Below are positions 1,508 to 21,788 of a DNA stretch of 50,587 bases, one piece after another. The stretch's first letter is position 1, and every line of letters begins with the position of its first letter. Below the pieces are notes generated by a model. The model searched no databases, was not told where the DNA came from, and saw only the letters and a program-made list of their open reading frames with translations. Both the position numbers and the translations under genes were made by a program. This DNA comes from an uncultured Bacteroidia bacterium (GTDB lineage Bacteria > Bacteroidota > Bacteroidia > Bacteroidales > F082): contig CADCML010000045.1 in assembly GCA_902802535.1 (NCBI GenBank), positions 1 to 50,587 of the forward strand, written 5' to 3'.

Positions 1508-3769
1508 TTATCTGACGATGGTGATGGACCCTTGCAGATGCAGTTTTTCCTCGCCAGTTTCGCTTTGGTAGGTGATGTCGCAAATGTAGAAATAGGTGCC
1601 GGGCGGGCAGTCCATTTTGGTCAGTTTGTTTTTGCCGTCCCATTGGATGAGCGGGTCGTCGGTGTCGTGGAGGATGTTGCCCCAACGGTTGAAAATCACC
1701 GTCTTCGCACTGACAATCAAGTCAATACCAGTCACTTTGGGCTCAAAGACATCGTTGTAGCCGTCGTCGTTAGGCGTGAACACATTGGGCAACACGTAAG
1801 AAAACTCCTCCGTCGGTTCCTCGTGGCCAATCTGCACCGTTTTGATGGCAGAATAGTTCACCAAAGGCCGCACAATGCCTTCCAAAGTATAATGACCGTA
1901 TGTGGCCACATAGTAACGGTAATACGCATCGGGTTCCACTTCCATATCGGTGTATTCCATGCCGCTTGTTGAAGCTATGTTGACGAAATAATTGTTCATT
2001 TCCTTGAAAATCAATGTACTGTCTACCATCCAAGGCACTATTTCCGTCCAAGAAAGGTAGGCTTCGTTGTCGGTTCCACTGGCCGAAAGCATCACCGCCG
2101 AGGCTGTCGTGCTCTCGCCCATGAACTGCTGGTGGGCATCATACATCGCCACCTTATATAATAATGTGTTAGCCTCCGCCAAATTGACATTCGCGTCAAG
2201 GAAGCTCGTTTCGGCACCTTCGTAAACAGTGGAACTTGCGCCATCGAAGATGCGCGTCAAGGCATAGCTGAACGGTGCAATATATTGGTCGTCAATCTCT
2301 TTCGGCTCGACCCAACGGGTGATGACATGACCCGAAACAAGGTCAGTATCGTCGTTGCTGACATGAGTCATCAGCGGGCAGTCGTTCTTCAGGATGACGC
2401 AAGCCGCTTCGCTGACGATGCTCAATGCGCCATCGGGGAACTGAGCCAATACGCGATATTCATAAGCAATGCCTTGCGGGAGATTGGTATCGGTGTAAGT
2501 CGTGGTTGCTGTATTGTTCAAGGTGGCGATGAGTTGGTAACCGTCTCGGATACCTGTTTCGCAAGCATCGGGGATATAGCCGTCGCAACCTGCCCTGCGA
2601 TACACCAACAAAGCCGTTGCATTGGGACAAGGATAAGCCGACCACGAAAGCTTTGCATCATGACCCTGCACCTCGGCAGTGAAGTTAGTCAATCGCGGTC
2701 CCATCACGTTGATACTCACCGTTTTCACGTTGGTCAAACTGACAGGCGAGCTGTCGTCCTTGGCGTGAATCACCACCTGATAAGGCGTCTTGCGGATATG
2801 GGCGTAGTTGGTATTCCACAGGAACTCCATTTGAGGCTGGACACCAAAAGCCATTTCGGGATGCAGAATCGCGGGACTGACCGCCACCTCAAAAGGCGCG
2901 CCCGAAGCCGTCAGCGTGACGTTGTCGCCATCAGGGTCGGAGGCAGAAATGACGAAATCCAACTGCTCGCCCGCCAGGATGCAAAACTGCTCATCGCATT
3001 GGATTTCAGGTAAGTCGTTGTTGCAGTGAGAGATAAGGATTTGCATATCGCGCACGACCGAGCCGATTTTCACGCCGTGTCGCCATTCCTCCACCATGAT
3101 TGCGATATTGTACTCGCCTTGTATGACTGGATTCTCCCACCGTAACTCACCCGTAACAGGATCGATGTCAAATGATTGCGAAGCTTGAGGCAAGGTGTAG
3201 CCCGCAATTTCGATGCCGTCCTGACCCTTGCATGTCACCAAGCGGTAACTCAAGCTATCGCCATCGGGGTCGTAAGCCGATGGATTATGCAAATAAAGCT
3301 TGCCCACGCAACCCCTATCGACAGGAGCGTTTAGCAGTTGCACCGAGTTGTTGTAGCCCAAAAACGGATTGATGACCAATTCCGTCTCAATGTGCATAGG
3401 CACCATCACCGAATTAGGTACGTTGATTACACCATAATTACGGTTGGCGTCCTCCATGCTGATGGTGTAAGTCCCTGAGGTTGAGTAGTTATGGATTCTC
3501 TTGTAAACATTCAGCGTGTAGTCGTTGCCGAGATTTTGTAGCACCACACGGGGGATGTATTCCTCCGCGCCATCACCCCATTGCACGAGCAGCGAGTCGC
3601 GTTGCAGACCCGCTGGACTGGGCGTATAGGTATAGCATGTGAGCGTAAACTCGTAGGCATTGCCGCCGAGCCATGTGTAGGTGATTTCGGCCGCACGCTG
3701 GTGGGTCGCCTTCGCAGTGAAGACAAGGCAAAAGAAAAAGCCTAATATGAGCAAGAGTTTACGCTTCAT
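1508..3769 (-). CDS. T9SS type B (gliding-motility C-terminal domain) surface protein
   Basis: This is a 753-residue exported protein. It starts with a clear signal peptide (MKRKLLLILGFFFCLVFTAKA). The body is rich in beta-sandwich repeats, including a Cadherin/PKD-like stretch with repeated DPDGD motifs (around residues 165-290) and a fibronectin-III-like part in the middle. The last 85 residues match the type B sorting domain of the Por/T9SS system: VLPNVFTPNDDGYNDVF, then VIFNRWGN, WDGK and a final GSITIVR. Such proteins cross the outer membrane through the T9SS and are attached or released at the surface. The ligand or enzymatic role is unknown. A -7 box lies at 3790-3797, and a copy of the 51-bp palindromic repeat sits about 40 bp further upstream, possibly an operator. 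Confidence 0.9.
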   Translation of the reverse strand: MKRKLLLILGFFFCLVFTAKATHQRAAEITYTWLGGNAYEFTLTCYTYTPSPAGLQRDSLLVQWGDGAEEYIPRVVLQNLGNDYTLNVYKRIHNYSTSGTYTISMEDANRNYGVINVPNSVMVPMHIETELVINPFLGYNNSVQLLNAPVDRGCVGKLYLHNPSAYDPDGDSLSYRLVTCKGQDGIEIAGYTLPQASQSFDIDPVTGELRWENPVIQGEYNIAIMVEEWRHGVKIGSVVRDMQILISHCNNDLPEIQCDEQFCILAGEQLDFVISASDPDGDNVTLTASGAPFEVAVSPAILHPEMAFGVQPQMEFLWNTNYAHIRKTPYQVVIHAKDDSSPVSLTNVKTVSINVMGPRLTNFTAEVQGHDAKLSWSAYPCPNATALLVYRRAGCDGYIPDACETGIRDGYQLIATLNNTATTTYTDTNLPQGIAYEYRVLAQFPDGALSIVSEAACVILKNDCPLMTHVSNDDTDLVSGHVITRWVEPKEIDDQYIAPFSYALTRIFDGASSTVYEGAETSFLDANVNLAEANTLLYKVAMYDAHQQFMGESTTASAVMLSASGTDNEAYLSWTEIVPWMVDSTLIFKEMNNYFVNIASTSGMEYTDMEVEPDAYYRYYVATYGHYTLEGIVRPLVNYSAIKTVQIGHEEPTEEFSYVLPNVFTPNDDGYNDVFEPKVTGIDLIVSAKTVIFNRWGNILHDTDDPLIQWDGKNKLTKMDCPPGTYFYICDITYQSETGEEKLHLQGSITIVR

Positions 3770-3789: not shown

Positions 3790-3797
3790 CAAATGTA
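3790..3797 (-). promoter_or_regulatory. -7 box (TACATTTG) for the type B surface protein
   Basis: The minus strand reads TACATTTG, matching TAnnTTTG, 20 bp before the ATG at 3769. The 51-bp palindromic repeat begins 40 bp upstream of the box. Confidence 0.5.
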
Positions 3798-3836: not shown

Positions 3837-3887
3837 ATTATTTTTGGCTATTTGAACACATTTTTATGGTAAGATAGCCAAAAATAA
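3837..3887. repeat. 51-bp repeat, left copy, containing a 14-bp inverted repeat
   Basis: This 51-bp stretch is identical, base for base, to 5346-5396 and in the same orientation. Each copy is itself a hairpin: arm TTATTTTTGGCTAT, a spacer of 22 bp, then ATAGCCAAAAATAA. This copy starts immediately after the ATPase stop codon and lies upstream of the promoter of the type B surface protein, so the pair of copies brackets the ATPase gene. Confidence 0.9.
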
Positions 3888-3889
3888 TA

Positions 3890-5284
3890 TCAAAACAAAT
3901 CATCTAAAATGATTTCTTGCCGTACATAATTAATTGAATATTTATTCTTTACAAGTCCATTGGAAGTCACCATTGCAAAAAACAAGGTCTTACGCTTGAA
4001 GTAATTTTGAACCTCGTTCAAGCGCGTTTCTATCTTATCCCATTCCGCTTTCGTGATGAGGTAAGGCCGCTCCGAAAATTTCATCTCGCACACCGTAACG
4101 GCCCGGTCGGCACGATCGATAACCATATCGACTTGCGCTTGTCCAGAATAATAAGAACAGGTTTTGGTCAGGATGCCAGAGATGCCTAATTTCTGCTTAA
4201 TCTGCTGTAAGTGAGCGAAGCACAATCTTTCAAAAGCCAAACCTCGCCATGTAGTGCAAGTGTTCGTCGTCAGCAAATGCATCCACGTCTCATGGTCGGA
4301 ATACGCACCGTTTTTCAGGAACTGGAAATAAAACAAGGTGAAGCTGTCCGAAAGCTGATAAAGATAAGGCACCTCACCAATGGTCTTGTATTTTCGGATG
4401 AAACCGCACTGTTCAAGAGCGATGAGTTTCCGCGTCAAGCCGCCGCCATTGCTCAGTTTGGAGCCTTTGGCAATCTCATCGCGAGTATAGCCTGATTTCT
4501 TCTTCGACAAGGTCTCCACAATGCGAACATAATCCTCTGATTTCGTGAAAAGTGAATTATAAAGATTGTCGAACTCATCGGCCAGAAGTGCCGATTCTGC
4601 GAAGAAAAGCCTGTCCACGTTTTGGGCCAGGCTTCGGCTCTTGTCAAGCAGATGCAGATAATAAGGTATGCCTCCGAGAATCATATAGCACTCCGCCACA
4701 CTCATATTATCCCACTTAAACTTTTGGCTTTCAAGATATTCCTTGGTCTCAGACAAGGTAAATGGTAGCAGTTTCATCTTGCAAGTCAAGCGGTTATGCA
4801 ACCCACCGTGATTATTGATGACCTTGTTGACCATCCACGAGGCCGCCGAGCCACACACCACAAGCACAATGTCGTTGCGCGCCGAAGCCCATTCGTTCCA
4901 AAACAGTTCCAAGGCCTTCAAAAACTCCGATTTCTGCGTATCCATCCACGGCAACTCATCCAGAAAAATCACTTTCCGCTTCTTTTTTGATTTCGCGACC
5001 AAAGTCTCAAGCCGTTCAAACGCTTCAAACCAATTGGAGGGCACGGCCTGTTCGTCAGGCGAGCCATAACGAATCAGTCTATTATGGAAATGCGCCAATT
5101 GTTCTTTACGGTTGCCACGCGCCACCCCTGTAGCATAATACACAAAATTATCTTGGAAGAACTCCCTAACGAGATAAGTCTTCCCTACCCTGCGGCGGCC
5201 ATAGACCACCACAAATTCCGAACCCGTTGAATCATAAATTCTTTGCAGTTCTTTTATTTCTTCTTTTCTGCCTACTATTTGCAT
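3890..5284 (-). CDS. AAA+ ATPase with winged helix and DUF234-type nuclease-like C-terminus
   Basis: This 464-residue protein belongs to the ATPase_2/DUF234 class common in Archaea and Bacteroidota, whose cellular role is not established. Walker A is VVVYGRRRVGKTYLV (residues 25-39) and Walker B is KVIFLDELPWMD (104-115). A sensor-like strand with CGS follows at 144-146. Residues 255-305 resemble a winged helix (SGYTRDEIAKGSKLS, then GGLTRKLIALEQCGFI). The C-terminal 100 residues hold VDMVID...CEMKF (D386, E400, K402), a spacing seen in PD-(D/E)XK nuclease folds. The product looks intact. Palindromic repeats lie on both sides, with a -7 box at 5308-5315. It could be an autoregulated DNA-binding ATPase or the passenger of a mobile unit; both are inference. 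Confidence 0.85.
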   Translation of the reverse strand: MQIVGRKEEIKELQRIYDSTGSEFVVVYGRRRVGKTYLVREFFQDNFVYYATGVARGNRKEQLAHFHNRLIRYGSPDEQAVPSNWFEAFERLETLVAKSKKKRKVIFLDELPWMDTQKSEFLKALELFWNEWASARNDIVLVVCGSAASWMVNKVINNHGGLHNRLTCKMKLLPFTLSETKEYLESQKFKWDNMSVAECYMILGGIPYYLHLLDKSRSLAQNVDRLFFAESALLADEFDNLYNSLFTKSEDYVRIVETLSKKKSGYTRDEIAKGSKLSNGGGLTRKLIALEQCGFIRKYKTIGEVPYLYQLSDSFTLFYFQFLKNGAYSDHETWMHLLTTNTCTTWRGLAFERLCFAHLQQIKQKLGISGILTKTCSYYSGQAQVDMVIDRADRAVTVCEMKFSERPYLITKAEWDKIETRLNEVQNYFKRKTLFFAMVTSNGLVKNKYSINYVRQEIILDDLF

Positions 5285-5307
5285 TGCTTCAGAATTATTT
5301 CTGGCTG

Positions 5308-5315
5308 CAAAGGTA
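5308..5315 (-). promoter_or_regulatory. -7 box (TACCTTTG) for the AAA+ ATPase gene
   Basis: The minus strand reads TACCTTTG, 23 bp before the ATG at 5284. The -33 position falls inside the half-site ATAGCCAAAAAT at 5331-5342, so a protein bound there would be expected to affect initiation. Confidence 0.55.
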
Positions 5316-5330
5316 GGATTTTTTCATTAT

Positions 5331-5396
5331 ATAGCCAAAAATGATATTATTTTTGGCTATTTGAACACATTTTTATGGTAAGATAGCCAAAAATAA
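5331..5396. repeat. Palindromic array upstream of the ATPase: half-site plus right 51-bp copy
   Basis: A half-site ATAGCCAAAAAT at 5331-5342 is followed by the full hairpin (arms 5347-5360 and 5383-5396). The two same-direction ATAGCCAAAAAT sites start 52 bp apart, close to five helical turns. Positions 5346-5396 repeat 3837-3887 exactly. The array covers the -33 region of the ATPase promoter, as expected for an operator. Confidence 0.85.
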
Positions 5397-5448
5397 GGGC
5401 GCACCTCTATCAAGCGCGCCCTATTCATTTTCAATCTGTCTGAAACAA

Positions 5449-5874
5449 TCACTTGTTCTTCAGCAGGTCGCGAATCTCGGCAAGGAGTTCCTCTTGCGTC
5501 GGGCCGGCAGGAGCGGCAGGCTCGGCAGGCTTCTCTTCTTCCTTCCTCTTCAGTTGGTTGATACCCTTGATAACCATGAAGATGGAGAAGGCGATGATGA
5601 TGAAGTCAAAGATGACTTGCAGGAAGTTGCCCCAAGTCATGGTCAATGCCGGTTTGACGACGGTCTCCCCGTCCATGACGGCTTCGCGAATCACCCACTT
5701 CCAGTCGGTGAAGTTGAGTCCACCCGTGATGGCACCAATGAGCGGCATGATGATGTCGGCCACCAATGAGGAGACGATTTTTCCGAACGCGCCGCCGATG
5801 ACCACACCGACAGCCATGTCCATGACGTTGCCCTTCATGGCAAACTCCTTGAATTCTTGCATAAATTTACCCAT
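5449..5874 (-). CDS. mscL: Large-conductance mechanosensitive channel MscL
   Basis: This 141-residue inner-membrane channel opens under membrane tension and releases solutes during hypo-osmotic shock. The N-terminal amphipathic segment and first helix show [30 protein letters not shown], the pore-lining signature of the family, here split over residues 9-38. A periplasmic loop follows, then the second helix ([20 protein letters not shown]). A charged, Pro/Ala-rich linker leads to a cytoplasmic helix ([14 protein letters not shown]). Length and domain order are typical. It appears monocistronic, with a -7 box at 5906-5913. Confidence 0.97.
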
Positions 5875-7640: not shown

Positions 7641-8048
7641 TCAAACGGCAACAGATTGCAACTCTCTGCCGAGCGAATGTAAGGCATTCACTATTTTGTC
7701 CGTTTGTGTCGGACGCGGATTGCTGCGCCCGCAGATGTAGTGTCCAAGTTGTCTTTCGTTAATGCCAGTAAGCCTTGAAAGCGATGCCCTTGTGAGAATC
7801 TTGTCGTAGCAATACAAAAGGCTTTGAATATCCATTTTATAGGTCAATTCATACTCGCCGTCAAAAACAGCCGGATAATCATCGCCATCGAGTTTCGCAC
7901 ATTCCAAATAGAAGTCGATGCTTTCCTGCACATAGTTTGCAAAATCCGAGAAACTGCCCGAAAAGGCCACCACCCATCCGGGAAGCAAGTCGCAACTTGC
8001 GCAGAAGCCTTTTTCTGTTTTCGATGTAGTGATAATTACTTTTTCCAT
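7641..8048 (-). CDS. hicB: HicB-like antitoxin with C-terminal helix-turn-helix
   Basis: This 135-residue protein combines an N-terminal RNase H-like HicB fold (MEKVIITTSKTEKGFCASCDLLPG, with the family's partial beta sheet; residues 1-80) and a C-terminal XRE-type helix-turn-helix (LSRLTGINERQLGHYICGRSNPRPTQ; about residues 90-125). HicB proteins neutralise the HicA mRNA interferase and repress the operon by binding DNA. It follows hicA with a 27-bp gap, the usual toxin-first order. The start has ATG at 8046-8048. Confidence 0.87.
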   Translation of the reverse strand: MEKVIITTSKTEKGFCASCDLLPGWVVAFSGSFSDFANYVQESIDFYLECAKLDGDDYPAVFDGEYELTYKMDIQSLLYCYDKILTRASLSRLTGINERQLGHYICGRSNPRPTQTDKIVNALHSLGRELQSVAV

Positions 8049-17162: not shown

Positions 17163-18367
17163 TTACCCTAGCAACCACTTCCAAAGCGGCATCACCTGAA
17201 TGGTCTTGCCGTCCTTTTCCAAAATAGTTTCTTCGTCTTTGGTGATAATCATCAGATCGTTCGCTTCCAAGCGCTTGGAAACCTTGATTAAAGCCTCGGT
17301 TTCGCGTTGGAAAGTGCTTTCATCTTGCAGGGAATAAGAGGTTTGAAGAAGTTTTTTTTGCTCGGGCAAGTAAAAATCGACCTCCACGCCGTTATGGTAA
17401 AAACAAACTTCGTTCTTGTACTTTCTTATCAAGTTGATGGCCACCATGTTCTCCAAAAGACTGGTCTCAGGATCTGGCAAAAACAGGTTGAGAATGCCGT
17501 TGTCGATGAAATAATATTTGCGTTGGGTGTTGCGTTCGGTCAATTTGCCAATGATGTTCTCCAACGGCAGCAGCAGCCACGATTCGCACATGTAATTCAC
17601 ATAATCAATGACTGTGTCAGTGCTGGTCTTTTTGCCAGTCGAACTCACCACATTGGCCAAACGGTTGTAGGATGAAGGCTGTTTTACGCTTTCTGCCAAC
17701 TTTTTGGCCAAAATGCGCAGACCAAAGTCGTTGCGGATGTCGTAACGCGCAATCAAATCGCCAAAGAAAACCTTGTTGAACAATCCGCTGAGCGGAAATA
17801 AGTCTCGAAATGCTTCGCAATCTCTTTTCTATGAAGATGCAAAGCGTTCTTTTCCTTTACATTAATGCCCAAAAAAGACAAATACTCAGCAAATGAAAGC
17901 GGAAACACTTCCTTAATCATATAACGCCCGCCCAAAATAGTCGCAATTTCCGAACTCAACATTTTGGCATTGCTGCCAGTGATGTAAACCCTATATTTTT
18001 GGTCCGCCAACCGTCGCGCAAACTTCTCCCAACCTTCAACAATCTGTATCTCATCGAAGAAGAAAACAGGCTGGGTATCAAACATTTCCTCGTATGCAGA
18101 CTTGATGATGTCCAAATCGGCCAAAGTCATTATTCCTAAACGGTCATCCTCAAAATTGAAATAGCAGATCTCCTCCATACGATAGCCTTTTTCCAATAAT
18201 TGATGGATGCGCTGATACAACAAATATGACTTTCCAGCGCGGCGCAAGCCCACAAGCACATAATTCTGTGCGTCCTCAAACGCATAATCGCGCTCATGAA
18301 AACTTACCGATGAAATAAAACGCTGATTTTCAATGATAATATCCTTTATTAAATCTTTGCTCAACAT
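17163..18367 (-). pseudogene. Broken AAA ATPase of the AAA_14-DUF4143 family
   Basis: Two overlapping frames together make one ATPase. The first (17753-18367) has Walker A LVGLRRAGKSYLLYQ, Walker B PVFFFDEIQIVEGWEKF and YITGSNAKMLSSEI, and ends normally up to HFETYFR before running out of frame. The second (17163-17783) resumes at FNKVFFGDLIARYDIRN and contains the complete DUF4143 nuclease-like part, with HNGVEVDFYLP. The family normally has about 20 residues (beginning YGGFPE) between YFR and this segment, so a small internal deletion with a frameshift at about 17780-17805 is inferred. It is upstream of no other gene in its direction. A three-unit palindrome array lies before its promoter. 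Confidence 0.85.
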
Positions 18368-19873: not shown

Positions 19874-19887
19874 ATAAAAATCATTAC

Positions 19888-19992
19888 TTCCAACCAAATC
19901 TACCCTTTTTTAATGAGATTTGGTTGAAACTAATGCGCTTTTTGCGTTACTTTCAACCAAATCTATGTATTTTTTGGTGGATTTGGTTGAAA
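19888..19992. repeat. Two 42-bp palindromic units, 63-bp period
   Basis: Unit 1 (19888-19929) has arms TTCCAACCAAATCT and AGATTTGGTTGAAA around a 14-bp centre. Unit 2 (19951-19992) has TTTCAACCAAATCT and GGATTTGGTTGAAA. Unit starts are 63 bp apart, about six helical turns. The central 21 bp and the loops differ between units. The array is between the hdeD promoter and the end of the DUF5131 gene and looks like a double operator. Confidence 0.85.
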
Positions 19993-20018
19993 CTTCGTAA
20001 AGATATCTGTCGCCATAA

Positions 20019-20886: not shown

Positions 20887-21648
20887 ATGAACACGCTATC
20901 GGTCGTCATCATTACCTTCAACGAGGAGCAGAAGATAGGACAATGCCTTGATTCTGTGAAGGATATCGCAGACGAAATCATCGTCGTGGACAGCCATTCC
21001 ACCGATGCAACCGAAGCCATCTGCGACCGCTATGGCGTGAAGTTCTTCTCTCAAGATTGGCTCGGCTATTCCGACCAAAAGAACCTCGCTGACGACCTTG
21101 CCACCTGCGACCTCATTTTTTCCATTGATGCCGACGAAGCCCTCTCCGATGAATTGAAACAATCCATCAAAGAATTGAAAAACAAGGACATCGCCGAAAA
21201 CGAGGTCTTCGCTATGAACCGCCTCAACAACTATTGCGGTCAATGGGTCAAAGGCTGTGGGCTTTATCCCGAGACCAAAATCCGCATCTGGAGGCGAGGC
21301 TTTGCCCAATGGGAAGGACTCATCCACGAATGGCTGAACTTCAAGGAAACGCCGAAGAAAACCCTATTGCAAAGTGACCTGCTACATTATTCTTGGGACA
21401 CGCCCGAAGCCTTCCGCAAACAACAATTCCACTTTGCGGAGTTGGGCGCACAGTCATACTACGAGCGTGGCAAGAAGACAGGCATTTTGCCCTATCTTTT
21501 CAGCCCAAGCATCAACTTCATCCGCACCTATATTATAAAAGGTGGCTTCCTCGAAGGCAAGACGGGACTTTACATCTGCCGCACGATGATGCAAGCCAAT
21601 AGACACAAGTACAACCTGTTAAGAGAAAAATTGAAACAAAAAAAATAG
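20887..21648 (+). CDS. Glycosyltransferase family 2, LPS-core WaaE/KdtX-like
   Basis: A 253-residue GT-A glycosyltransferase. The N-terminus SVVIITFNEEQKIGQCLDSV and EIIVVDSHSTDAT are the nucleotide-sugar-binding strands, and FSIDADEALSDEL holds the DxD-type metal site. The later part (KIRIWRRGFAQWEGLIHEWL, then a helix with FIRTYIIKGGFLEG) resembles WaaE/KdtX-type enzymes that add a sugar to the LPS inner core at the cytoplasmic face of the inner membrane. The open frame begins at 20749, but ATG 20887 fits the promoter and the conserved start. The sugar donor is not known. Confidence 0.92.
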   Translation: MNTLSVVIITFNEEQKIGQCLDSVKDIADEIIVVDSHSTDATEAICDRYGVKFFSQDWLGYSDQKNLADDLATCDLIFSIDADEALSDELKQSIKELKNKDIAENEVFAMNRLNNYCGQWVKGCGLYPETKIRIWRRGFAQWEGLIHEWLNFKETPKKTLLQSDLLHYSWDTPEAFRKQQFHFAELGAQSYYERGKKTGILPYLFSPSINFIRTYIIKGGFLEGKTGLYICRTMMQANRHKYNLLREKLKQKK

Positions 21649-21654
21649 ACTATG

Positions 21655-21750
21655 GGACTACGAGACTACGGGACTACGGGACTGCGAGACTACGGGACTG
21701 CGGGACTGCGAGACTGCGGGACTGCGAGACTACGGGACTGCGGGACTGCG
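21655..21750. repeat. Array of twelve 8-bp units RGACTRCG
   Basis: Twelve adjoining units of (A/G)GACT(A/G)CG run without interruption. They begin 7 bp after the glycosyltransferase stop and end 38 bp before the four-helix-bundle gene. No ORF of interest crosses it. The reverse complement of the same unit recurs, degenerate, on the other side of that gene. Confidence 0.92.
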
Positions 21751-21788
21751 AGTCTTTGGTATTACACAAATAATTAGACTTAGACGAT

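Follow-up and report, generated by a model that had tools for sequence, protein, structure and literature searches.

The single-gene system PDC-S27, in which an ATPase is fused to a PD-(D/E)xK domain, is a phage-defence candidate (PDC) that is abundant in archaea, and most PDCs still await experimental validation (PMC12988326); in rumen genomes, 2865 occurrences of PDC-S27 have been counted (PMC13356809). RAYT/TnpA-REP elements (REPtrons) consist of a single gene with subclass-specific flanking palindromes and show a patchy distribution, horizontal transfer and loss (PMC6006769, PMC3733652). Here we describe a unit that shares features with both, located at positions 3837-5396 of a 50,587-nucleotide stretch of DNA (contig CADCML010000045.1, analysed over this whole length and hereafter called the window) from an uncultured Bacteroidia bacterium (assembly GCA_902802535.1; 3.7 Mb in 139 contigs, 85% complete), in which an AAA+ ATPase gene is bracketed by two hairpin-forming repeats. 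This unit probably belongs to a large family of mobile cassettes that each carry a single gene. Its product would probably bind a palindrome private to its lineage and repress its own gene, with the end copies of this palindrome delimiting the unit.

The window protein matches the PADLOC model of PDC-S27 (PDLC04984) over its full length (residues 2-464, E 8.4e-189), and all 77 sequences of a family alignment (A2) match this model, too. The consulted passages on PDC-S27 (PMC12988326, PMC13356809) mention neither private hairpins nor a self-operator anatomy or cassette boundaries, and a search of the open PubMed Central literature (bioRxiv preprints lie outside this scope) yielded no account of flanking hairpins for this family. 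As in REPtrons, the window gene is flanked by its own palindromes, is patchily distributed and has apparently been lost in places. However, RAYTs are HuH/tyrosine enzymes, whereas the window protein combines an AAA+ with a PD-(D/E)xK domain, and REPs are high-copy sequences, whereas the window genome holds the window hairpin in two copies only. The Tn7 system pairs an AAA+ protein with a PD-(D/E)xK nuclease, TnsA. The ATPase core of the window protein shows a weak profile match to TnsC of the Tn7-like Tn6677 (7ufi, E 0.0017), but the unit holds no second gene between its hairpins and therefore no DDE transposase or other Tns partner. The orc1/cdc6 genes of haloarchaea encode AAA+ plus winged-helix proteins beside their own inverted repeats (private origin recognition boxes, ORB), with many paralogs per genome; to our knowledge Orc1/Cdc6 has no nuclease, and the window unit, unlike these loci, shows no evidence of an origin. 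Residence at several loci with defined ends is shared with classical insertion sequences, but no DDE, serine or tyrosine transposase or recombinase domain was detected in a Pfam scan of the single long open reading frame (ORF) between the hairpins. The same scan returned only AAA-type domains and DUF234, and no HuH tyrosine domain.

The unit and its hairpins

The unit comprises the following features, all on the minus strand:

5346..5396, minus strand: 51-bp hairpin upstream of the gene, proposed operator and one outer boundary of the unit, adjoining the terminator-like hairpin of mscL
5331..5341, minus strand: putative half-operator, an additional 11-nt arm without mismatch (TTTTTGGCTAT) across the -33-like TTTG of the ATPase promoter
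5308..5315, minus strand: -7 box TACCTTTG of the ATPase promoter, of the Bacteroidota-type consensus TAnnTTTG
3890..5284, minus strand: ATPase gene, 464 aa, with an AAA+/STAND-type ATPase domain (ATPase_2), a middle region that may hold a winged helix, and a C-terminal PD-(D/E)xK motif (DUF234-like); PADLOC PDC-S27
5177..5200, minus strand: Walker A motif, residues 29-36 (GRRRVGKT), conserved in alignments A1 and A2
4079..4129, minus strand: putative nuclease core D386, E400 and K402 (Q-x-D ... E-x-K), preceded by E352, invariant in 77/77 aligned sequences
3837..3887, minus strand: identical 51-bp hairpin just downstream of the stop codon, opposite outer boundary of the unit

The copies at 3837-3887 and 5346-5396 are identical over 51 bp and lie in direct orientation, and each contains a perfect inverted repeat whose 14-nt arms are separated by 22 nt (15 nt in the downstream copy when one extra base pairs), which confirms the description given in an earlier note on this DNA. 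Its placement of the two copies also holds: the ATPase -7 box TACCTTTG (5315-5308) is preceded by the right copy, and the -7-like box TACATTTG (3797-3790) of a gene for a type IX secretion system (T9SS) surface protein is preceded by the left copy at a distance of approximately 40 nt. A third, degenerate copy (5294-5344, 65% identity) retains a perfect 11-nt arm TTTTTGGCTAT (5341-5331), whose position overlaps that of a -33-like TTTG in the ATPase promoter. Within the 3.7-Mb assembly, the arm pattern TTTTTGGCTAT-N(8-35)-ATAGCCAAAAA matches only the two window sites and its reversed control none, so that a search of the host genome finds the repeat nowhere else. In the following, G000 denotes the window genome and other G numbers its relatives of the same genus (99 genomes); exact arms of the window hairpin are present in 16/99 genomes of the genus, with one or two copies per genome.

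Full identity of both copies was observed only in the window genome among the five genomes with an intact element. In the remaining four (G056, G014, G072 and G057), the loops of the two copies differ and the arms are exact, an exactness that follows from the search pattern, which demanded exact arms. A single base separates each of the two G000 copies from the upstream copy of G056, and thus copy-to-copy conversion is the likelier origin of their identity, rather than a fresh duplication. Among 14 hairpins at the mscL site (locus A), which were collected by synteny and do not include the degenerate hairpins of G037 and G071 and the hairpin of G069, 0/22 arm columns and 16/22 loop columns are variable (Fisher p 3.6e-7); with these three added, the values are 2/22 and 19/22. 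The earlier suggestion that the perfect match implies a recent origin or strong selection is thereby refined, as the arms are nearly invariant and the loops drift.

The encoded protein

The window protein matches ATPase_2 (PF01637) with 75.3 bits, above the curated cut-off of 33.2, and its C-terminal part scores just below the cut-off of DUF234 (PF03008; 21.8 versus 22.5 bits), a domain matched by 11 of the 26 members of alignment A1 at E 0.01. Invariant in all 77 sequences of A2 are the Walker A lysine, the Walker B residues D109/E110, and E352, Q384, D386, E400 and K402; the protein is thus read as a probable AAA+ ATPase joined to a PD-(D/E)xK nuclease. The middle region between both parts is probably a winged helix, an assignment that is indirect because only a few of the 26 members match helix-turn-helix families (HTH_20 in three, HTH_IclR in two and TrmB in one). 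Two archaeal ATPases of solved structure, 2FNA (profile positions 7-295) and 2QEN (3-299), which we take to be STAND-type ATPases, resemble the ATPase part, with the match excluding the C-terminal nuclease part. Profile matches to the regulator SloR (E 0.049) and to ORC4 (E 0.24) are weaker, as is that to TnsC. In addition, a tail of the type [DEN]x[LM][FY], such as TMDDLF, is conserved near the C-terminus of 195/236 proteins and in 0/236 of a control window. Binding of this tail to the beta clamp was considered and not adopted, since the clamp-like motifs read in Y-family polymerases of the genus and order are QLDLF, QLALF or QLSLF, which it only partially resembles. No second cognate gene of the toxin-antitoxin type was found on the coding strand between the hairpins, and the G057 unit holds the same single gene.

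A family with private palindromes

The window genome encodes 15 further full-length paralogs with 39-48% identity to the window ATPase, and 9 of its 16 family genes, including the window gene, have a palindrome-derived word of at least 13 nt in common between upstream and downstream sequence. At E 1e-30, at least one family member is encoded by 69/99 genomes of the genus, with 0 to at least 16 copies per genome. Among the matches listed, 159 genus loci (16 from the window genome and 29 + 114 from relatives) were compiled, of which 158 hold intact genes and one, L177, a truncated gene that was left out. The 158 genes form 51 clusters at 70% identity, 49 of which had sufficient flanking sequence and were each represented by one locus. 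A second set of 80 named loci derives mostly from Bacteroidota, with few from Kiritimatiellae, Lentisphaerae, Succinatimonas and clostridial metagenome-assembled genomes; 75 of these were retained after L264 and L305 (odd length) and three loci with short flanks were left out. Eight of the 80 named loci duplicate genus loci and are counted twice in the tests on 235 elements and 125 representatives.

Arms of at least 11 nt were identified upstream in 33 and downstream in 26 of the 49 genus representatives, and in none of the gene interiors or shuffled upstream sequences; the corresponding counts for the 75 named loci are 39 upstream, 23 downstream and 0 in the interior. A word of at least 13 nt is common to the regions -260..-1 and +1..+180 in 30/49 genus lineages, compared to 8/735 mismatched pairs, and a shared upstream/downstream word is present in 20/75 named loci versus 7/1125 mismatched pairs. 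When arms of 9 nt or longer within -220..-1 were required, an upstream palindrome was detected in 188/235 elements, versus 3/235 gene interiors and 3/235 shuffled sequences (183/227 and 3/227 interiors after removal of the eight duplicates). The arms are alike (7/8 positions) in 66-77% of pairs with more than 70% protein identity, in 27% at 60-70% and in 7-12% below 60%. The palindromes are thus private to lineages, as they are alike in close relatives and unlike below approximately 60% protein identity. The nearest named relatives, L237 (57%) and L238 (55%), have window-like arms (TATTTTTGGCGGT and TTATTTTTGGCT). The private hairpin of paralog L008 is present in 8 of 20 genomes searched, and at one locus examined in each of seven genomes a full-length family gene adjoins it in all seven, namely the cognate (91-100% identical) in six and a 59%-identical paralog in G089.

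Beyond the genus, relatives at E 1e-5, all with less than 60% identity, occur on 146/72,556 plasmid records and 8/50,697 phage records. Upstream palindromes are present in members from Segatella, Butyrivibrio and Emticicia, with weaker ones in Malaciobacter, and nine members were found on viral contigs, four of eight examined having an upstream arm of at least 9 nt.

Near the site of paralog L016, a further locus (L339, G020:C46) contains the start of another ATPase-like gene behind a repeated AATCTCAAAAACGTG-like motif; private repeats may accompany this other ATPase type, too.

Anatomy of the proposed operator

The upstream palindrome is closely associated with the promoter of the family gene. 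A TAnnTTTG box was identified in -90..-1 of 104/125 representatives, versus 4/125 in the control region -230..-140 and 14/125 on the other strand (97/117, 4/117 and 14/117 after removal of duplicates), and in the 82 representatives with both features the inner end of the palindrome lies at a median of 29 nt upstream of this box. Furthermore, an extra 9-mer of the own arm is located between palindrome and start codon in 35/100 cases (a set including the duplicate loci), compared to 1.4 on average and at most 6 when arms were swapped (200 rounds). With a palindrome and a half-site on the gene's own promoter, the upstream copy is built like a private self-operator. One of two explanations offered in the earlier note, a pair of operators through which the ATPase controls itself and the surface protein, is partly supported, on the side of self-control, by an anatomy that recurs across the family with different sequences.

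The middle region was tested as the domain that sets specificity; it correlates best with arm similarity, yet the preference is only weak, and it was not adopted as such.

The unit at different loci and its boundaries

In the window genome the unit is located at locus A, which is composed of these flanking features:

5449..5874, minus strand: mscL, flanking gene
5397..5421, minus strand: hairpin resembling a terminator behind mscL, left flank of the unit (read from sequence)
3790..3797, minus strand: -7-like box TACATTTG of the T9SS gene, present also in relatives without the hairpin
1508..3769, minus strand: gene for a T9SS type B surface protein (CHU_C domain), flanking gene outside the unit

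Near-identical genes (98-99%) are located at the same mscL/T9SS place in G056, G014 and G072, and in G072 the unit is 94% identical in DNA with flanks of 75% and 88% identity. G057 encodes the cassette (88% protein identity) at another locus, where the similarity spans window positions 3838 to 5396. Across the family, 348 within-cluster pairs were compared in their flanks by blastn (pairs with short flanks are not among them); 165 have no detectable flank similarity on either side, 111 only downstream, 11 only upstream and 61 on both sides. In 15/21 clusters, the start of the similarity lies no more than 15 nt from the outermost upstream hairpin edge (swapped control 27%), and in 11/21 its end lies equally close to the outer downstream hairpin edge (swapped control 22%). 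The cassette boundaries are, like the private palindromes and their position relative to the promoter, features of the sequences themselves, and coincide with hairpin edges upstream in most of the tested lineages and downstream in about half. It is thus supported that the hairpin pair bounds a unit residing at different loci in different species. The second explanation of the earlier note, the ends of a mobile or excisable unit, is borne out to this extent, and it merges with the self-operator instead of excluding it.

For paralog L011, 218 bp of upstream sequence are 100% identical in the window genome, G056, G061 and G071, and the downstream flank only 87-88%, which suggests a recent transfer that included upstream sequence.

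Empty, truncated and gene-less sites

At locus A, 8 of the 16 fetched relatives (L086-L093) are empty, with an intergenic region of 105-152 bp and no such hairpin, and such a hairpin is likewise missing from the mscL site in two further fetched loci (G060 and G089). In all eight empty relatives, a TACATTTG or TACCTTTG box precedes the T9SS gene. The 16 genomes with exact arms comprise five with an intact unit (G000, G056, G014, G072 and G057), two with a 5'-truncated gene and nine without a cognate gene in the fetched stretch, and occupy two loci, A and a locus B beside the copy of G057 (G061, G087, G089 and G020). The truncated genes of G037 (L100) and G061 (L177) lie between two hairpins and start at approximately residues 281 and 241, respectively; in both, the deletion begins just past the promoter half-site. 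The single hairpin of G089 is still preceded by bases resembling the stop-codon region of the gene.

Gene-less hairpins occupy the mscL site in six genomes. They correspond in part to what the earlier note had named as a refutation, namely the repeat at this place in relatives that never carried the ATPase; since truncated and intact copies share this locus in other genomes, however, loss of the gene explains these hairpins as well as prior presence of the repeat does. Single gene-less hairpins do exist among loci without the ATPase, but half of the fetched locus-A relatives have neither gene nor hairpin. In the genomes with gene-less hairpins, no full-length cognate above 60% identity was found among the matches listed, the six locus-A assemblies being 77-88% complete. 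A simple vertical history at locus A was rejected, as the tree of mscL and partial T9SS sequences interleaves intact, gene-less and empty sites; because of low support and signs of gene exchange, no direction of gain or loss was drawn from it.

Empty sites were also identified for paralogs. The L006 site is empty in G061 (flank identity 90% and 95%). The L007 site is empty in G097, and G061 keeps palindrome and promoter there without the gene; the L007 junction is uninformative on target-site duplication because the stop codon overlaps the start of the next gene. The L016 site was discarded as a clean pair of empty and filled sites, as its right flank is a repeat array with another ATPase-like gene start in G020. 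Together with the different loci and the invariant nuclease residues, the empty, truncated and gene-less sites are read directly from the sequences.

Several of the empty relatives L086-L093 contain TTTTTGGC or TTTGGCT, similar to one hairpin arm, directly past the mscL stop codon; this may reflect chance, shared ancestry or a target preference.

The window contains a second gene-less footprint at 19884-19994, where the sequence of two tandem hairpins (19891-19926 and 19954-19989; CAACCAAATCT...AGATTTGGTTG) corresponds to the private array that accompanies family member L211 in G056. Their exact arm pattern occurs in the window genome at this place only, and no family gene was found at these tandem hairpins. 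Hairpins of the L211 type are present in 7/20 genomes; a family gene adjoins them only in G056 and at G066:C8, and none lies within 3 kb of the eight other loci read (seven places).

Proposed mechanism and alternatives

We infer from these sequences that the protein binds its upstream palindrome as double-stranded DNA and represses its own gene; a role of its own nuclease in movement and a function in defence against phages or rival elements are likewise conjectural. The upstream copy, often accompanied by an extra half-site, overlaps the gene's own promoter or immediately precedes it. In many lineages, including that of the window, the palindrome is repeated past the gene, which gives a hairpin-promoter-gene-hairpin unit residing at different loci, and repeated truncation or loss of this unit would leave gene-less hairpins.

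Several observations weigh against this scheme. No common upstream/downstream word of at least 13 nt exists in 19/49 genus lineages, and several clusters end near the stop codon without a downstream hairpin; a cassette can consequently be present at new loci without being flanked by two hairpins. Some of the shared words in the genus and named sets are non-palindromic. In 10/21 clusters the downstream end does not coincide with the hairpin edge, and some boundaries are up to 206 nt off; among these misses are the clusters that end near the stop codon and others whose flanks share a longer stretch. The only candidate for a target-site duplication is TTCA (4 bp) on both sides of the L006 insertion. 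The arms of gene-less hairpins are conserved in genomes where no cognate gene is seen, which a simple self-operator does not explain. Among eight plasmid and phage members read, three haloarchaeal members and that of Wolbachia phage WO are without an upstream palindrome, and the palindrome is thus regarded as a feature of a subfamily. The relationship of middle-region identity to arm similarity is weak (r 0.22, with non-independent pairs). Finally, mismatches between upstream arms lean to G-T (66 versus 44 A-C); downstream, G-T (29) and A-C (33) are balanced. Because the lean occurs upstream only, a double-stranded DNA site is somewhat favoured over sense RNA.

That the encoded nuclease performs the movement of the proposed cassette is conceivable but less likely than not. 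In its strongest form, which we regard as speculative, the family would constitute an undescribed type of self-mobilising and self-regulated element, in which the protein recognises and represses at its own palindrome and the nuclease cuts or copies the unit at the hairpin ends. Recognition would diversify with the protein, allowing at least 10 orthogonal copies per genome, and gene-less hairpins would be footprints or non-autonomous offspring.

The main rival, to which we assign a limited though real chance, is passive spread of a phage-defence gene with a private autoregulatory operator, in which the hairpins serve as operators only, the nuclease attacks invaders, and movement occurs by homologous or illegitimate recombination and general horizontal transfer instead of by the element's own nuclease. 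The full-length match to PDC-S27, the patchy presence in the genus and the relatives on plasmid and phage records are consistent with this explanation, as are the many members that have only the upstream palindrome and the elements without a downstream hairpin that are likewise found at different loci. On the other hand, lineages with two hairpins often have their boundaries at the outer hairpin edges, and the downstream copy has no obvious role as an operator, though no sequence feature speaks decisively against passive transfer.

Considerably less probable is that the hairpin came first as an attachment-like site, into which the gene arrived as a one-hairpin circle by site-specific recombination to give two copies. 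Gene-less single hairpins at the same loci would fit this order of events, but at locus A both gene and hairpin are absent from half of the fetched relatives, and the stop-codon-like bases in G089 and the two 5'-truncated genes between hairpins point to decay of a full element.

An operator pair controlling both the ATPase and the T9SS surface protein is slightly less plausible still. The distance of the downstream hairpin to the T9SS promoter box would suit such control, and the gene-less hairpins at this place keep their arms; however, a like box is kept without the hairpin in 8/8 empty relatives and the G057 unit lies at another locus, away from the T9SS gene. Control of the T9SS gene is therefore not supported, and this part of the operator pair in the earlier note was rejected.

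An RNA-level element, either terminators or RNA hairpins bound or cut as transcripts, is the least credible alternative and was dismissed, because despite the long stems, the many downstream copies directly past the stop codon and the upstream wobble excess, the upstream palindrome usually precedes the -7 box, no wobble excess exists downstream, where the transcript of the gene would include the hairpin, and no T-tract follows the stem in the window.

Dozens of paralogs, each with a private site of known sequence, provide a direct handle on binding, repression, cleavage and movement in the preferred scheme of a self-repressing mobile cassette. If the family mobilises itself, a defence-candidate gene would also be a selfish element with a chemistry unlike that of known transposases; if not, it would offer many natural pairs of regulator and operator in gut Bacteroidota, probably orthogonal to one another. 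These findings may bear on the control and spread of PDC-S27, an abundant defence candidate in archaea and rumen microbes according to PMC12988326 and PMC13356809.

Other features of the window

Outside the unit, the window encodes an AAA_14 ATPase of 204 aa (17753-18367), which is possibly truncated. AAA_14 is the domain of DUF4143-type ATPases. A HicA-type toxin ORF (PF07927; 8076-8336) is accompanied by a neighbouring ORF (7641-8048) that has no Pfam match and resembles a HicB antitoxin. Furthermore, approximately 13 tandem copies of an 8-bp unit (GACTACGG-like) are located at 21648-21755.

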